DNA of 23,394 nucleotides. Source: a virus. The notes beneath the pieces are model-generated. The model worked only from the letters and a program-made list of their open reading frames with translations. It made no database searches and was not told the origin of the DNA. Positions 640 to 11,813 of this stretch are shown one piece after another. The position numbers and the translations under genes are program-made. The number at the start of each line of letters is the position of its first letter. Within the stretch, counting starts at the first letter, position 1. Where the stretch lies: positions 1-23,394 of IMG/VR virus record IMGVR_UViG_3300044858_004742. One strand, given 5' to 3'.

Positions 640-684
640 TTCAAACTCAAAGGTTGGAACAACACCAACAAGGAACCGCAGTAA
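631..684 (+). pseudogene. C-terminal remnant of a paralogue of the 306-620 gene
   Basis: Reading from 631 gives NNFFKLKGW followed by about eight residues and a TAA at 682-684. This resembles the NFCKLKGW end of the upstream gene, and the DNA from 541 and from 632 aligns with about four of five bases identical over some 26 positions. No start codon or upstream coding part remains; the codon before 631 is TAA. I read it as the tail of a duplicated gene whose body was lost. Its stop overlaps the ATG of the next gene (TAATG). Confidence 0.45.
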
Positions 685-1139
685 TGGCAATCAGCACAGT
701 CGGAGTATCAACACTTTTCTCGTCGGACGGTCAGGTGTTTTCGCGTTCAGAATATCAGGGCGCGATTTATCAAGAAGTCCACTTCACGGATCGGTTGGCG
801 TTTGACACGCAGTTCACGATTACCGAGCCGCGTGGCGAGGCACTGACAAACTTCACCTTTCCCAATTACCCGCTCATTCCCAACAAGCACTTCATGGGAT
901 CGTTTGATGGATTCTGGATTCACAAAATCTACAACGGCAAGCAGTTGGTGATGACGGTGCAGGGGGTGGATCAGGACTTGTTTATTCCCGTGGTGCATGA
1001 CCGCGTGGAGAGCGTGTGTATGCAGGCTTCCACTGAATTGAATGGAAGCGATTGTGAGCCACCCGATGTTCCTGCACCTGGTGCGCTTGCGGTTTTCTTG
1101 ACTGCCGCATTCGTGGCATCACGCCGAAAGCGCATCTAA
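684..1139 (+). CDS. Protein with PEP-CTERM-like C-terminal sorting signal
   Basis: This 151-residue protein starts at ATG 684; an AAGGAA lies 8 bases upstream, and the longer in-frame start has no ribosome site. Residues 1-125 are a soluble-looking region of unknown family. The last 23 residues have a three-part layout: VPAPG, a hydrophobic helix (ALAVFLTAAFVAS) and a basic tail (RRKRI). This is the architecture of PEP-CTERM signals processed by exosortase; the PAPG variant is, from memory, common in Planctomycetota. No N-terminal signal peptide is evident, which is odd because PEP-CTERM proteins are normally Sec-exported. A simple tail-anchored membrane protein is the alternative. A strong terminator follows at 1163. 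Confidence 0.65.
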   Translation: MAISTVGVSTLFSSDGQVFSRSEYQGAIYQEVHFTDRLAFDTQFTITEPRGEALTNFTFPNYPLIPNKHFMGSFDGFWIHKIYNGKQLVMTVQGVDQDLFIPVVHDRVESVCMQASTELNGSDCEPPDVPAPGALAVFLTAAFVASRRKRI

Positions 1140-3024: not shown

Positions 3025-3231
3025 ATGCGTGACGAAGAACGGGAAGAACTTCAGACCCTTCGGGAATTGGCGAAAGCCGTTGATGACCTACTTGGGGATT
3101 TTCCCCCGCTCCAACGATACAGGCGTGACCGCAGCGGAACGGTCGGGTTTACACCTCGCACTCTTTCGCTATACCGATACACTTGGAGACTCTTAAATGT
3201 TTGGAAGAAAGCACGAAAAGACGGAGGTTGA
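3025..3231 (+). CDS. Small basic/coiled protein
   Basis: This 68-residue protein starts at ATG 3025, seven bases after an AGGAGG. Its N-terminus (RDEEREELQ) resembles that of the 306 gene (SDEEREYLN), suggesting a shared origin. The C-terminal half is basic. An overlapping frame (2972-3196) without a ribosome site is rejected. The stop lies 3 bases before the next ATG. Confidence 0.6.
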   Translation: MRDEEREELQTLRELAKAVDDLLGDFPPLQRYRRDRSGTVGFTPRTLSLYRYTWRLLNVWKKARKDGG

Positions 3232-3234
3232 ACG

Positions 3235-3393
3235 ATGGAAGGCAAACATGGAGCAGGGAAGGGAGATTCCTATCGTCCGGTTGATCGGTTGGCTTGGGAG
3301 CGTGGTTGGGATGCGATCTTCGGAAAAGCCCAAGTTCAAAAGCCCAAGCGGAAACCGCGCACTGGGAAGAGCAAGCACCCGCGAAATCCATAA
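3235..3393 (+). CDS. Short conserved phage protein (GKGDSYRPVD motif)
   Basis: This is a 52-residue protein with ACGGAGG 8 bases upstream. It contains GKGDSYRPVD and, a little later, WDAIFGK, a combination I recall from short proteins of unknown function in many T4-like and other large phages. The C-terminus is Lys/Arg/Pro-rich. It lies in a tight run of small genes (3025, 3235, 3398), so it is likely co-transcribed with them. The longer overlapping frame that starts at 3197 is not needed to explain the region. Confidence 0.65.
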   Translation: MEGKHGAGKGDSYRPVDRLAWERGWDAIFGKAQVQKPKRKPRTGKSKHPRNP

Positions 3394-3397
3394 GTTC

Positions 3398-3655
3398 ATG
3401 CTGTTCCGCCTGATGCGTAGCATGAGCGAAGAGTATTTCGCTGCGGGATGGATGCACGGATTGGAACTGTCCTTGTGGCACATGGCACTGAAGGGCGACT
3501 CGTATGAGGGACAAATGCTCCTGATGTGCGCGGAAACCGCAGGGGGCTGGTGGGTGTGGGACGATGATCGTGATGAGAATGTGTTTGTTCCACTCCCTGT
3601 TTGGCGGCAGATGTACGAGCAGTATGCAGGAGAGATTGCAGAACCTGTTCGGTAA
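3398..3655 (+). CDS. Small conserved phage protein
   Basis: I take ATG 3398, five bases after the previous stop, giving 85 residues. The in-frame extension to 3197 would overlap the 3235 gene completely. The EEYFAAGWMHGLE-type segment and a second W-rich part (GGWWVWDDD) resemble short phage proteins of unknown role. No clear Shine-Dalgarno precedes the ATG, so it probably depends on coupling to the gene before it. The tmRNA gene begins immediately downstream. Confidence 0.6.
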   Translation: MLFRLMRSMSEEYFAAGWMHGLELSLWHMALKGDSYEGQMLLMCAETAGGWWVWDDDRDENVFVPLPVWRQMYEQYAGEIAEPVR

Positions 3656-3661
3656 TAAATA
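3654..3661 (+). promoter_or_regulatory. Possible T4-type late promoter (AATAAATA)
   Basis: AATAAATA differs from the T4 late octamer TATAAATA at one base and is flanked by GGTA/TACC arms. It overlaps the stop of the preceding gene and lies just upstream of the tmRNA acceptor piece. Confidence 0.4.
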
Positions 3662-3666
3662 CCAAT

Positions 3667-3975
3667 GGCATTGTTGATAGCGGACTGAACCACATACAGC
3701 ACGGGGGTTCAACTCCCCCCGACTCCATTAAAAGATGCGCGAACGCGAAGTGACTGCATCACTCGCCTCTTCCCGCAGTCAAGTCCTCCGATTGCAGCGG
3801 GGGCAAATATACGGGGTCGATTCGGAATCGACTGGTGTGTAGTAGAGAAGCAGGAGATGCCCGAGGGGTGCAGCGGACCCTCGTTAAAAACACCGGTGCA
3901 ACAATAATTGCCAACAGACTGGCAATGGCGGCTTGAAGCCGTGGGGACTGATCCTCCCGCGACTGAACGGATCAA
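3667..3975 (+). ncRNA. ssrA: Circularly permuted (two-piece) tmRNA
   Basis: The 3' tRNA half comes first: GACTGAACCACATACAG, then T stem GGGGG (3703-3707), loop TTCAACT, CCCCC, 3' acceptor strand CGACTCC (3720-3726) and discriminator A3727; CCA is not encoded. After an 85-base spacer (3728-3812) comes the 5' half: acceptor GGGGTCG (3813-3819), a D-loop-like ATTCGGAATCGAC, then CGAGGG/CCCTCG (first pseudoknot stem) and the resume region AATAATT-GCC. The acceptor strands pair over 7 bp with a G-U at the third pair, the AlaRS identity element. The tag reads from GCC 3910: ANRLAMAA, then TGA 3934-3936 in a CGGCTT/AAGCCG hairpin. The RNA would rescue stalled ribosomes with SmpB. Outer ends are approximate. 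Confidence 0.88.
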
Positions 3976-4002
3976 GGGAGCCGCAAGGCTCCCTTTTCTT
4001 TT
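3976..4002 (+). terminator. Rho-independent terminator of the tmRNA
   Basis: Perfect stem GGGAGCC/GGCTCCC around a GCAA loop, followed by TTTTCTTTT. Confidence 0.9.
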
Positions 4003-4031
4003 ATACATAATTGAACACGGAGGACACACGC

Positions 4032-4299: not shown

Positions 4300-4328
4300 T
4301 TGACCGTGCCCCCAAGGTGGACTATACT
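4300..4328 (+). promoter_or_regulatory. Sigma70-like promoter
   Basis: TTGACC (4300-4305), 17 bases, TATACT (4323-4328). The bases AAATCGTAG-AAGGG just upstream are nearly repeated before the 5799 promoter. The expected start of transcription coincides with the ATG at 4335. Confidence 0.75.
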
Positions 4329-4334
4329 TTGGGC

Positions 4335-4532
4335 ATGGCAAAGCGAGTCCTAGACCCCATTGACATTGAAGCGGAACGACAGGGCAGTGCCCTGCGCCGT
4401 GGACGGCAGCAGCAGTGCAAGCCCTACGGATTCAACAAGCGCACCCATGCAGAACGCCGTGCGCGGCGTGACGGTGAAGCGCGGCAAGAGTGCCGCACCG
4501 TGAAGACCCGTATGTTTGTGGAGGCGTGGTGA
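4335..4532 (+). CDS. Small Arg-rich basic protein, probably leaderless
   Basis: This 65-residue, strongly basic protein contains Arg-rich stretches (ALRRGRQQQ, AERRARRD), suggesting nucleic-acid or ribosome binding. The -10 box TATACT ends at 4328, so transcription should begin at about 4334-4336, on the ATG itself. There is no Shine-Dalgarno, and the mRNA is expected to be leaderless. A GTG at 4317 in frame lies inside the promoter and is rejected. The stop overlaps the next ATG (TGATG). Confidence 0.6.
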   Translation: MAKRVLDPIDIEAERQGSALRRGRQQQCKPYGFNKRTHAERRARRDGEARQECRTVKTRMFVEAW

Positions 4533-6687: not shown

Positions 6688-7125
6688 ATGAACGCTCGTC
6701 AAATACAGCGCCTCCTCCGTGTTGCGTATCCCCTGTGCTTGGAGATTCCCCGTCCCAAGAAGCACATCTCTATTATTCTGTACAAGGGGCGAGTAGAGTC
6801 AATTGGTTCCAATGCCATAAAGACCCACCCGATGGCAGTGCAGCACGGTTACCTGTTCGGGGAAATGCATTCAGAACTGGACGCATTTCTCCGCGTGGGT
6901 GAGCGCAAGCGGGGGCTGGTCCTGTTCAACATCCGATTCAACCGATTCGGGCAGATGCGTATGGCGCGTCCGTGCCCACGGTGTATGCCGTGGTGTGTGG
7001 GCTGTTTCAGTGAAATCTGGTACACCACCGACGAGGGAGTAATGCTGCACGGTGAGGGGTTAGCCCCTATAAATATAGGGACACCGAAGGAGATTCTGAA
7101 TGAAAAAGTTCACCCAATATCTTAA
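6688..7125 (+). CDS. Zinc-dependent CDA-fold deaminase
   Basis: This 145-residue protein has H61-S-E63 and P95-C96-x2-C99, the metal-binding and catalytic signature of the cytidine/deoxycytidylate deaminase superfamily: His and two Cys bind zinc, Glu shuttles the proton. The order (SNAIKTHPM, then GEMHSELDAF, then ARPCPRC) matches small deaminase-fold proteins in many phages. The substrate (free nucleotide or base, or nucleic acid) cannot be read. No Shine-Dalgarno is visible: the start follows the T-run of a terminator, so expression probably needs read-through. The C-terminus overlaps the next gene and contains that gene's late promoter. Confidence 0.8.
   Translation: MNARQIQRLLRVAYPLCLEIPRPKKHISIILYKGRVESIGSNAIKTHPMAVQHGYLFGEMHSELDAFLRVGERKRGLVLFNIRFNRFGQMRMARPCPRCMPWCVGCFSEIWYTTDEGVMLHGEGLAPINIGTPKEILNEKVHPIS
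7068..7075 (+). promoter_or_regulatory. T4-type late promoter (TATAAATA)
   Basis: A perfect TATAAATA within the inverted repeat CCCTATA-AA-TATAGGG, 25 bases before the ATG at 7100, where AAGGAGA (7087-7093) is the ribosome site. Confidence 0.8.
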
Positions 7126-7954
7126 TTCAACCCAATTGAGCGAGTCTCTGAACGACAAGGCTGTCGTAGAGGTTCCGCTTGTTGAAACCAAACTGTCCCG
7201 CGTCTTTCAGTATGTGGAAGACGACAAGAAGGACTTTGGAATTGTTAGTGCTTTCCGTGGCGTGAATTCCGACAAGGAGAACAAGGCACGGCACGAAGAG
7301 TTGAAGAAGGCTGTTCGTGCAATGGGCTACGGCTTTATTGAATTGCGCGGAGGCTATAAGGGTGACGAGGGATATGTGGAGGAATTGAGTCTGCTTATTC
7401 CCAACATCACAAAGAAGGGAATTGTTGATCTTGGGCGCAAGTATCAGCAGCACTCCGTGATGTACAAGAACGATCAGGACTTCTATTACATCGGCACCAA
7501 CGAAGAGGCTGGTGTAGGCAAGGTTCTCATGCGCTTCAAGAAGGGCGAGGGGCAGGACAATCTTGAACTTGCAAAGCACAAGGTGGTGGACTTCTTCTCC
7601 CAATTGAAGAAGGGCGCACACTCCGACAAGAAGTTTGTTTTCAATGTAAAGCCTGAAGCCGAAGGTGGTCAGCAACAGAGCAGCGGTGGAGAAACCACTG
7701 CACAGGCACAGCGTCACCGACCAGGCGACATTTGGAAGACATCAAGCGGACTGTGGGGCGGCATGGACGACAAGGGCAACTACGAGTATTTTGACGATCA
7801 AGAGGCTGCTCGTAAGTTTGCAAAGAAGCACCGCAAGGGCTACCGAATTCAGGAGCGCGAGGAGTGGTGCTTTGCAAAGGCAGCATATTTGCGTCGCGGA
7901 GAAGACCCAAAGTGGATTACAATTTATGAAGATTCGCAAGACGAAATCGCATAA
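7100..7954 (+). CDS. Probable internal head protein
   Basis: This is a 284-residue protein with a late promoter and strong ribosome site. The N-terminus MKKFTQYLNSTQLSE has the look of the capsid-targeting propeptide of T4 internal head proteins, and L13-S-E15 fits the L/I-x-E cleavage rule of the gp21 prohead protease. Residues about 45-140 (IVSAFRGVNSDKENKARHEE, then GYGFIELRGGY, then QHSVMY) resemble a domain of unknown function that I recall from phage polyvalent and internal proteins. After a Q/S/G linker (about 190-210), a basic aromatic C-terminal domain follows. I infer packaging in the head and delivery with the DNA; the activity is unknown. Confidence 0.65.
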   Translation: MKKFTQYLNSTQLSESLNDKAVVEVPLVETKLSRVFQYVEDDKKDFGIVSAFRGVNSDKENKARHEELKKAVRAMGYGFIELRGGYKGDEGYVEELSLLIPNITKKGIVDLGRKYQQHSVMYKNDQDFYYIGTNEEAGVGKVLMRFKKGEGQDNLELAKHKVVDFFSQLKKGAHSDKKFVFNVKPEAEGGQQQSSGGETTAQAQRHRPGDIWKTSSGLWGGMDDKGNYEYFDDQEAARKFAKKHRKGYRIQEREEWCFAKAAYLRRGEDPKWITIYEDSQDEIA

Positions 7955-8146: not shown

Positions 8147-8611
8147 ATGAACTTTAAGACACTCGTTTCGTCGCTCGTCGCTTCTCTCGCCATCTCGTCC
8201 GCTGCACAGGCGCAGTGGGTTGGCGGTGGCAGTGGCATCTCCATCGGTGTGGGCGGCGGCTACAGCAAGACCACGCTTCCCAACGGTCAGTCCATTTCCA
8301 ACAGCAACATCAACTGGGGCGTTGGGATGGGATCGGCATCGTCCTACGGCATGGGCTACCCCTACGGTGGCTACGGCATGGGCTACGGTGGCTACGGCAT
8401 GGGGTATGGCATGGGCTACGGCGGTTGGGGCTACGGCGGTTACGGTGGCTACGGCTACTACCCGTCCGCAGTGATGCCCTACTACGGCGGCGGTTGTGCC
8501 CCCGTGGTGGTTCCGTACTCCCCGTTCACTGGCACTTACGCCAATCCGTGCTACACCCCGCAGGTGATTGCTCCTGCCGCTGCGATGCCGCAGGCTCCGG
8601 TTATTTGGTAA
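8147..8611 (+). CDS. Secreted Gly/Tyr-rich low-complexity protein
   Basis: This is a 154-residue protein with GAAAGGAG before the ATG. Residues 1-22 are a textbook Sec signal peptide (basic NFK, hydrophobic core, AQA before residue 23). Residues 23-60 contain strands with Gly runs (VGGGSGISIGVGGGYS). Residues about 66-105 are tandem GYGM/GGYG repeats. The C-terminus has two cysteines and a Pro/Ala-rich end. Such sequences occur in outer-membrane or extracellular adhesive and structural proteins; a role in modifying the infected cell surface is inference. It is expressed from its own sigma70 promoter, so probably early or from the host polymerase. Confidence 0.8.
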   Translation: MNFKTLVSSLVASLAISSAAQAQWVGGGSGISIGVGGGYSKTTLPNGQSISNSNINWGVGMGSASSYGMGYPYGGYGMGYGGYGMGYGMGYGGWGYGGYGGYGYYPSAVMPYYGGGCAPVVVPYSPFTGTYANPCYTPQVIAPAAAMPQAPVIW

Positions 8612-9558: not shown

Positions 9559-9744
9559 ATGTCCACTCCTAAACCAATAACGGAAGCACTTCGTCAAAAA
9601 ATTCGTGACCTTCGTGGGTTGGGTGATGCCGTGGAAGCAGTTACTGAAGTGCTTGCCATAAAAAAATGCTCTGCTTGTGAAGAGCGCAGAAAAAAACTCA
9701 ATCAGATGTTTCCTTTTGGAGGATCAGACGGACAGATTAAGTGA
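9559..9744 (+). CDS. Small conserved phage protein with CxxC
   Basis: I use ATG 9559 (61 residues); the GTG one codon upstream is in frame. The core GLGDAVEAVTEVLAIKKCSAC followed by ERRKKLNQMFP is a pattern I recall from short proteins of many large phages, role unknown; the CSAC and basic helix could bind zinc. Its 3' end overlaps the convergent 388-residue gene by 21 bases, and its DNA also carries that gene's terminator. Confidence 0.65.
   Translation: MSTPKPITEALRQKIRDLRGLGDAVEAVTEVLAIKKCSACEERRKKLNQMFPFGGSDGQIK
9660..9685 (-). terminator. Minus-strand terminator inside the 9559-9744 gene
   Basis: On the minus strand GCTCT-TCACAAGC-AGAGC is followed by A and seven T. It lies about 40 bases beyond the stop of the convergent appendage operon. 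Confidence 0.65.
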
Positions 9745-10890
9745 AAGTCTGGGTCTGATGCTGCTCTTTTTCACTATTGTTGGGAGTCCTGTCCTGTTTT
9801 CTGATGCAGTAGCCTGTTTCAGATACAACCGAATCCTGTTGTTTTGTTTCCGTTCGTCGGAATAGAACTCAACCGTGAACGATTTTGCGTTGTTTGGATA
9901 TATGTTTGGCTGATACTCAAAAATCACAGGATCATCTGGTAGTAATGTCTGTAAATCTACTACAAGAGAATTGCTTGGATTGATAAATTCTACGATCCCA
10001 GAGCCGGTCGGCACTGCCGACACCACATCAAACTCCATTGATGTGTATATTTCCGTTGAAAATCCAGCAGTTGACCCCGAAACAACGAACTCTCCATCGT
10101 TTCTCTTGTCTATTAGCGTGTAGACAGCAGAATTAGTGTTCACATCAGGTGCAAACATGGTGAAAGTGCTTCCAATTGAAGCGGATGCATTAAATGTGGA
10201 CCACCTCTGTGTGCCTGTTGTGGAGGTTTCTGCATTTTTTATCACCAAATACGGAGACTGCGGCTTCACTTGAACAAAAATTCCTTCTGTTTTTAGAGAA
10301 TTGGTGTCTCCCGCTCCTAAAAACACGCAGTTTGACTGTGGAGAGACACCTAGCAACGGGGATTCTGCTTGTTGAGAGTAAAATTCCCATATGTCCGAAG
10401 AGTCTTCTGTGCTGGTAAGCATGATTCCTAGATTTGAATCAGAATACGCAAGCCAAATGTTCAAGAATGGAGTCATGTCAAACGAAACTGTGTTTCCGTT
10501 CCAGTATCCTTCAGGAATTATTCCTTCCGCAAGAGGCTCAACTGACCCACCGTCTTGCCATGTTGATCCTGTTGTTTCGGAAGGAACATACCATGTTGCT
10601 GTTTCATCAGCAGAAGCCCCTAGCGGAAGCATGAAAGCATACAGTGTTCCTGATGTTTTTCCCTCTGCTGATGTGAGTGACAGAGTTCCGTTTAGGATGT
10701 TGTATGGATTTCCTGCTGTGTATCCATCCACAGACTGTAGACTGTTTTCTATGAATGACCTGATATCAAAAAACAGAGTAGAGCGGTATATGGATTTTTC
10801 AGTCCCGCCAACTTTTATGGTTTTTCTTGAACGGTACAGAATGTTTCCGTCCAATCCGCCTTCATAAGATTGTGTAGTTGTGGATGTCAT
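9724..10890 (-). CDS. Putative virion appendage protein with DNRLRE-like domain
   Basis: This 388-residue protein starts at the ATG that overlaps the upstream stop (ATGA at 10890-10887), not at the in-frame start 60 bases earlier. Residues about 5-170 (EGGLDGNILYRSRKTIKVGG, YRSTLFFDIRSFI, GTLSLTSAEG, SFDMTPFLNIWLA, GIMLTS) have the repeating strand pattern of the DNRLRE/CBM-like beta-sandwich found in cell-surface and phage adhesins. The remainder is Ser/Thr-rich and beta-like. It contains one cysteine and no membrane helix. As last gene of a three-gene operon with two other beta-rich proteins, it is probably a fibre or receptor-facing decoration protein. Confidence 0.65.
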   Translation of the reverse strand: MTSTTTQSYEGGLDGNILYRSRKTIKVGGTEKSIYRSTLFFDIRSFIENSLQSVDGYTAGNPYNILNGTLSLTSAEGKTSGTLYAFMLPLGASADETATWYVPSETTGSTWQDGGSVEPLAEGIIPEGYWNGNTVSFDMTPFLNIWLAYSDSNLGIMLTSTEDSSDIWEFYSQQAESPLLGVSPQSNCVFLGAGDTNSLKTEGIFVQVKPQSPYLVIKNAETSTTGTQRWSTFNASASIGSTFTMFAPDVNTNSAVYTLIDKRNDGEFVVSGSTAGFSTEIYTSMEFDVVSAVPTGSGIVEFINPSNSLVVDLQTLLPDDPVIFEYQPNIYPNNAKSFTVEFYSDERKQNNRIRLYLKQATASENRTGLPTIVKKSSIRPRLSLNLSV

Positions 10891-11813
10891 TGTGAATTTA
10901 TTATTGGAGATCCAATACCAGGAATCATAGGGGGAATGGTGTTTCCGCACCCCTTAGAAAATTCTATTACTAGAATTGTTGAGCAGGTTTTCCTTACCAA
11001 ATCTATTCTTGCACAATTTCTTCCATTTTCATCACGAAATCTAGTGACATATTCGTTGGTTTCTATACTCACTGGTCCTCCAATAATTATTGGTCCAGAT
11101 TTTGTCCCGATATCAGGATACTCTGGATCCCAATTGGGAGTACCTGGTCCGTATCCAGGCTCATATTCTAGTGGTGGAGGTGTGGGAGTTTGGATTTCTT
11201 TCCAATCATCCCAAGGATCATAAGCATCATCTTCGCTTATTATATCGACTGGACTTGTTGGATTGAGCGGATCGCAGTCTGGTGATGCGTCTTTGCAGCA
11301 CGCTATTGTTGTGGTTCTGCTTATTGAACCATGACACCACACAACAGCCTTTATCCAGCCACATTGTCGTGGATTTTCTGGATCATACACATACATCGGA
11401 TATGGAATATCTTCAAATTTTGGAGCAGGAGGACACGGACAGGGTTCAAAAATTTGTGGATTCGGTGGATTTCCTACAGGAGATGTTGGAAATCCTGTTG
11501 GCTTGCTTGGAGGAAGCGAGGTATAAGAAGCAATAAACTCTTTTCTCTGTTTTTGTGAAGAAAAAACAGGAATATCCTTTGCAGCAAGTGAAGCCACTAT
11601 TTCGTAATCAATGCCACCAACAGTAATTGTTGGTCTTCTAACATCACTTAAACCAATGAAAGTTTGTGCCGCAGTTTCAAATACTTTTGGTGGATTTGAT
11701 TTCAGTATATTCGTGATGTAACTGTCTGTGATTAGCAGAGGATCGTCCACCACTATATTGATGTTTGTGGTGGTGAATGTTTTAGAGCGAAAGTCGTTGT
11801 TGCTGCCGTTCAT
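10887..11813 (-). CDS. Pro/Cys-rich putative structural protein
   Basis: This 308-residue protein starts at ATG 11813, overlapping the upstream stop (TGATG); the GTG one codon earlier is the alternative. Residues 1-100 look beta-like. Residues about 105-165 hold a Pro- and Cys-rich stretch (EPCPCPPAPK, then CGWIKAVVWCHG, then ACCKDASPDC). Residues about 180-235 are a Pro/Asp/Tyr linker, and three further cysteines lie near the end. The cysteine number suggests metal binding or a disulfide-stabilised extracellular domain. No family is recognised; it lies between two probable appendage genes. Confidence 0.65.
   Translation of the reverse strand: MNGSNNDFRSKTFTTTNINIVVDDPLLITDSYITNILKSNPPKVFETAAQTFIGLSDVRRPTITVGGIDYEIVASLAAKDIPVFSSQKQRKEFIASYTSLPPSKPTGFPTSPVGNPPNPQIFEPCPCPPAPKFEDIPYPMYVYDPENPRQCGWIKAVVWCHGSISRTTTIACCKDASPDCDPLNPTSPVDIISEDDAYDPWDDWKEIQTPTPPPLEYEPGYGPGTPNWDPEYPDIGTKSGPIIIGGPVSIETNEYVTRFRDENGRNCARIDLVRKTCSTILVIEFSKGCGNTIPPMIPGIGSPIINSQ

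Follow-up and report, generated by a model that had tools for sequence, protein, structure and literature searches.

The window, a 23,394-base virus record, very probably holds the permuted ssrA gene of an uncultured T4-superfamily phage. tmRNA is the RNA that frees stuck ribosomes, and the best reading of the locus is a two-piece tmRNA under selection, because its helices covary across four phages, and the spacer and upstream flank have diverged while the mature parts and the tag have been held. The Rfam permuted-tmRNA model RF04321 (tmRNA_permuted) matches over its full length at 3667-3936 on the plus strand, with 69.3 bits against a cut-off of 47 (E 1.1e-11 versus all of Rfam), and ARAGORN calls a permuted tmRNA (tmRNA*) at 3636-4027 with the tag ANRLAMAA. 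Together with a gene neighbourhood shared by three other contigs and compensatory changes, the score and the call argue that the match is not due to chance. Of the three older subtype models, the betaproteobacterial RF01850 (beta_tmRNA) ranks first among the matches listed, and the window reaches 41.5 bits at a permissive threshold, below that model's cut-off of 84. The features that define RF04321 are present: the T arm and 3′ acceptor strand (3703-3726) are encoded ahead of the 5′ acceptor strand (3813-3819), the tRNA-like domain with its alanine identity pair G3-U70 is invariant in the four phages, the inter-piece helix covaries in helices 1 and 2, and there is a pre-tag pseudoknot, a resume codon and a stop-terminated tag frame. 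The gene looks real and functional from its sequence. The original prediction, which proposed a phage tmRNA in permuted form with its own tag, is borne out by the covariance model and ARAGORN scans it had suggested, by synteny and by covariation. Every element that it named can be found, namely the T stem-loop, acceptor strands, D-loop-like segment, CGAGGG/CCCTCG stem, resume GCC and ANRLAMAA-stop frame.

All parts of the gene lie on the plus strand. A late-promoter-like octamer, AATAAATA, matches by motif at 3654-3661, about one helical turn ahead of 3667. The predicted acceptor piece (3667-3727), delimited by the RF04321 alignment and by covariation with 3832-3861, contains the 5′ strands of the inter-piece helix (3667-3671, 3691-3694 and 3697-3699), the T stem-loop (3703-3719) and the 3′ acceptor strand (3720-3726), followed by the discriminator A3727. 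A CCA after the discriminator is not encoded in any of the four phages, which read CCATTA; most other phage tmRNAs checked have CCACCA at the same position. The predicted intervening spacer (3728-3812) is identical to that of the 147-kb relative G008 at 29 of 93 positions and would be removed by processing. ARAGORN, RF04321 and the alignment place the predicted coding piece at 3813-3973, its 3′ end being provisional. It opens with the 5′ acceptor strand GGGGTCG (3813-3819), invariant in the four phages, which pairs 7/7 with 3720-3726 and includes G3-U70, just as had been claimed. The 3′ strands of the inter-piece helix (3832-3861) are followed by a pseudoknot at the PK1 position (3862-3895; helices 5 and 6). 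Its stem 1 is the CGAGGG/CCCTCG pairing (3862-3867/3878-3883) already proposed as a pseudoknot stem, to which we add stem 2 (3874-3876/3893-3895). The tag frame ANRLAMAA-stop occupies 3910-3936, with the resume codon GCC at 3910 preceded by U at -5 and A at -4. The loop of a helix at 3928-3942, invariant in the four phages, contains the stop codon of the tag. An H-type pseudoknot (3944-3973; stems 3944-3947/3955-3958 and 3950-3954/3969-3973) has three double-changed pairs (helix 10). It is followed by an intrinsic terminator (3974-3997) with a hairpin at 3974-3995, where G008 has a different G+C-rich inverted repeat. A tag hairpin masking the resume codon (3907-3913/3920-3926) was set aside as not special, since most of the tmRNAs checked form a comparable hairpin.

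Three other IMG/VR phage contigs carry the tmRNA at the same place, two retrieved by a pattern scan of IMG/VR and the third, G008, by a gp32 search. Gene order is shared with all three, and protein identity is 35-55% for the ORF just before the tmRNA (3197-3652) and 74-76% for the ORF at 4317-4529. With identities to the relatives falling as far as 36-42% for the gp54- and gp19-like tail proteins, the group is, judged by its sequences, old. The 3197-3652 protein had no match when used as an IMG/VR query, and DNA likeness in cultured phages was limited to short matches, the best-ranked over the terminator region. In the alignment of the four, 15 of 64 pairs are changed on both sides, against a mean of 5.3 in shuffles (0 of 500 reach 15) and 0-4 when the structure is slid, four sequences being few for such statistics. 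A hand-drawn structure with two pseudoknots leaves 96.5% of cells paired across the alignment; since the window sequence served as its template, that percentage is biased in the structure's favour, and the double changes carry more weight. Of these, six fall in helices 1 and 2, which join the two predicted pieces, while three in the terminator helix count for little, G008 being poorly aligned there. Covariation is uninformative either way about three invariant parts: the T stem, the acceptor with G3-U70 and the stop-codon helix. Identity between the window and G008 is 33% in the upstream flank, 75% in the acceptor piece, 31% in the spacer, 75% in the tRNA-like/PK1 part, 96% (of nucleotides) in the tag frame, 73% after the tag and 32% in the terminator. 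The contrast between spacer and mature parts comes from this one distant member, because the window spacer is still 88-89% like those of the two nearer relatives. From the freely diverging spacer and the covarying inter-piece helices we infer cleavage into two pieces.

The octamer AATAAATA fits the cyanophage late promoter motif NATAAATA, as given in an excerpt of PMC2984593; the T4 form is TATAAATA. T4 late TATA boxes sit about one helical turn before the transcription start, according to a passage of PMC2988020. By this motif argument, the octamer appears placed to start the tmRNA transcript near 3667. The window contains 7 copies of the octamer core ATAAATA where 1.43 would be expected, and 1 of 100 shuffles reaches 7. 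Other copies stand 23-29 nt ahead of a 498-aa tail gene, a 284-aa gene and the baseplate-hub gene, and the first two recur before homologues of like size in the contigs G001 and G002. The octamer at -13 is also exact in L092, with one core mismatch in L090 and L091; that ATAAATA is imperfect in two of the four relatives counts against the late-promoter reading. In the mechanism we propose, a late-promoter transcript would run from a start near 3667 to the terminator near 3997. Host enzymes would excise the spacer, RNase P at 3813 and a 3′ tRNA-processing activity near 3727, and CCA would be added after the latter step. The two pieces would stay together by base pairing, receive alanine and act in concert with host SmpB. 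On ribosomes stalled late in infection, the RNA would append ANRLAMAA to the nascent chain, terminate at UGA and free the ribosome; the tagged chain would then be degraded to some degree. An SmpB gene had no match in G000, G001, G002 or G008, and host SmpB would be needed because the gene is absent from the 147-kb relative.

The four phage tags are ANRLAMAA, ANQLAMAA, ANRMAMAA and ANRLAMAA, all ending AMAA. By eye, the phage tag resembles an ANDERFALAA-type tag minus two residues. The bacterial permuted beta tags retrieved were ANDERFALAA, ANDEHFAIAA and ANDENFALAA, a small sample in which the MAA end is absent. The tag had been described as short with an uncommon end, and within that sample the combination does appear unusual. 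MAA also ends the tag (ANTRAFAMAA) of a one-piece phage tmRNA, L023. An effect of this end on ClpXP would be a guess. It is unlikely, though worth weighing, that rescue occurs without destruction, a short MAA tag lacking DE being poorly seen by host ClpXP/SspB so that the phage assumes control of ribosome rescue yet spares the tagged proteins. The AMAA end in all four relatives, its absence among the retrieved bacterial tags and the missing DE of ANDERFALAA-type tags would fit, but the C-terminal hydrophobic residue and AA are retained. A decoy role, in which the RNA would bind SmpB of the host and suppress trans-translation there, seems much less probable. The failure to find SmpB in the phage would be compatible with it, and phages can carry such inhibitors, a tmRNA of mycobacteriophage DS6A that has only the tRNA-like domain having been proposed as one in excerpts of PMC11915505 and PMC4131195; yet a decoy could do without the tag frame, the stop-codon helix and the pseudoknots, all of which are conserved. 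That the gene is a non-functional relic captured from the host, or a pseudogene, is scarcely credible: its RF01850 score is low, but compensatory changes among the four phages contradict it, as does conservation among phages with some tail proteins only 36-43% identical. Returning to a two-piece tmRNA under selection, it is conceivable, if rather doubtful, that it represents a phage-lineage-specific permuted subtype, expressed along with the late genes, and that its shortened MAA tag changes what becomes of proteins rescued while virions assemble.

The window encodes gp32 (phrog_224), the late-transcription regulator gp33 (phrog_254), tail tube, baseplate, head-closure and DNA-end-protector proteins and seven tRNAs. 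Among 80 contigs found through gp32, 13 have a tmRNA (12 by ARAGORN, one of them the one-piece L023, plus L048 by RF04321), always on the gp32 strand and upstream of that gene, in a search whose centring on gp32 favours that place. The 32 whole contigs searched gave no second RF04321 match. At 1078-1444 of L023, a one-piece tmRNA (RF00023, 119.5 bits) occupies the place upstream of gp32 that in relatives is taken by permuted forms. Attempts to assign a host were unsuccessful. The window gp32 is closest to cyanophage gp32 (about 55%) and G008 gp23 to Synechococcus phage capsids (58-60%), and best matches to cyanophages at about 54-60% identity are too distant to name a host. RF01850 is passed by 1 of 299 Pseudomonadota genomes and by 4 of 150 in the order of that one match; the tags are of the ANDE type, and the host is not assignable from subtype. 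A pattern scan of genome contigs gave one alphaproteobacterium only. A 161-aa ORF (654-1139, plus strand) ends in VPAPGALAVFLTAAFVASRRKRI, which is PEP-CTERM-like (TIGR02595, 12.3 bits, below the cut-off of 16; E 0.24) and is a possible host clue; similar ends occur in L103 and L099/L100. Elsewhere in the window, the N-terminal half of the 284-aa protein (7100-7954, plus strand) matches Pfam S-AdoMet_lyase (39.2 bits, cut-off 28) and DUF3293 (36.3 bits, cut-off 25), and TATAAATA lies 24 nt upstream of its gene here and in two relatives. A Gly/Tyr/Met-rich repeat protein with a signal-peptide-like start (8147-8611, plus strand) has 35-52% identity in three relatives. A 408-aa ORF among the tail genes (9727-10950, minus strand) has a DNRLRE-domain-like match of 25.9 bits, below the cut-off of 34.

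The novelty of a permuted tmRNA in a phage, implied by the original prediction, was overstated. In the excerpts available of PMC9004378 (2022, methylophage Melnitz), 402 phages have a tmRNA, with 133 unique structures, and 53 two-piece structures are given in phage genomes, 50 of them marine or aquatic; an excerpt of PMC11915505 counts 79 unique phage tmRNA sequences and introduces RF04321. The form being already reported, the window gene is a well-supported further case. A keyword search of literature excerpts found no earlier description of this clade, tag or late-type octamer. The new details are that octamer, the lack of an encoded CCA, the lack of SmpB in the 147-kb relative and a score under the cut-off of the best subtype. 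One more clade of uncultured T4-like phages is now known to bring its own ribosome-rescue RNA. Covariation is stronger evidence of selection on it than a single model match, and the octamer yields a testable claim on when the phage needs its tmRNA. That a tmRNA, permuted or one-piece, recurs upstream of gp33-gp32 in distant phages suggests an enduring association with the late-gene region.

Melnitz and Pelagibacter phage Mosig offer the closest likeness in place, each being a T4-like phage with a permuted tmRNA just upstream of gp33-gp32 on the same strand. Their tmRNAs are of the alpha subtype with an LAA end, whereas that of the window is beta-like, ends in MAA and lacks CCA. A glutamine riboswitch match adjoins the Melnitz tmRNA, and an excerpt of PMC9004378 describes that tmRNA downstream of an early promoter, in contrast to the late-type octamer here. 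The betaproteobacterial permuted tmRNA (RF01850) shares the part order and the 3′-end hairpin and is the best-scoring subtype, but it differs in its ANDE-type tags, and the window remains under its cut-off. A tmRNA of Stenotrophomonas phage Marzo is reported in a passage of PMC8928761. Stenotrophomonas phage Mendera is also T4-like and has a permuted, beta-type tmRNA (NC_048804, 68064-68315; L177; 118.5 bits) that the feature list for that stretch omits. It differs from the window in its location within a cluster of tRNAs that precedes the genes for ribonucleotide reductase, in a tag ending RIAA and in an encoded CCA. Melnitz, Mosig and Mendera score 94-119 bits in this analysis. The tmRNAs of mycobacteriophages such as Bxz1 have the one-piece form, unlike that of the window. 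They are likewise phage-encoded, as an excerpt of PMC4131195 describes.
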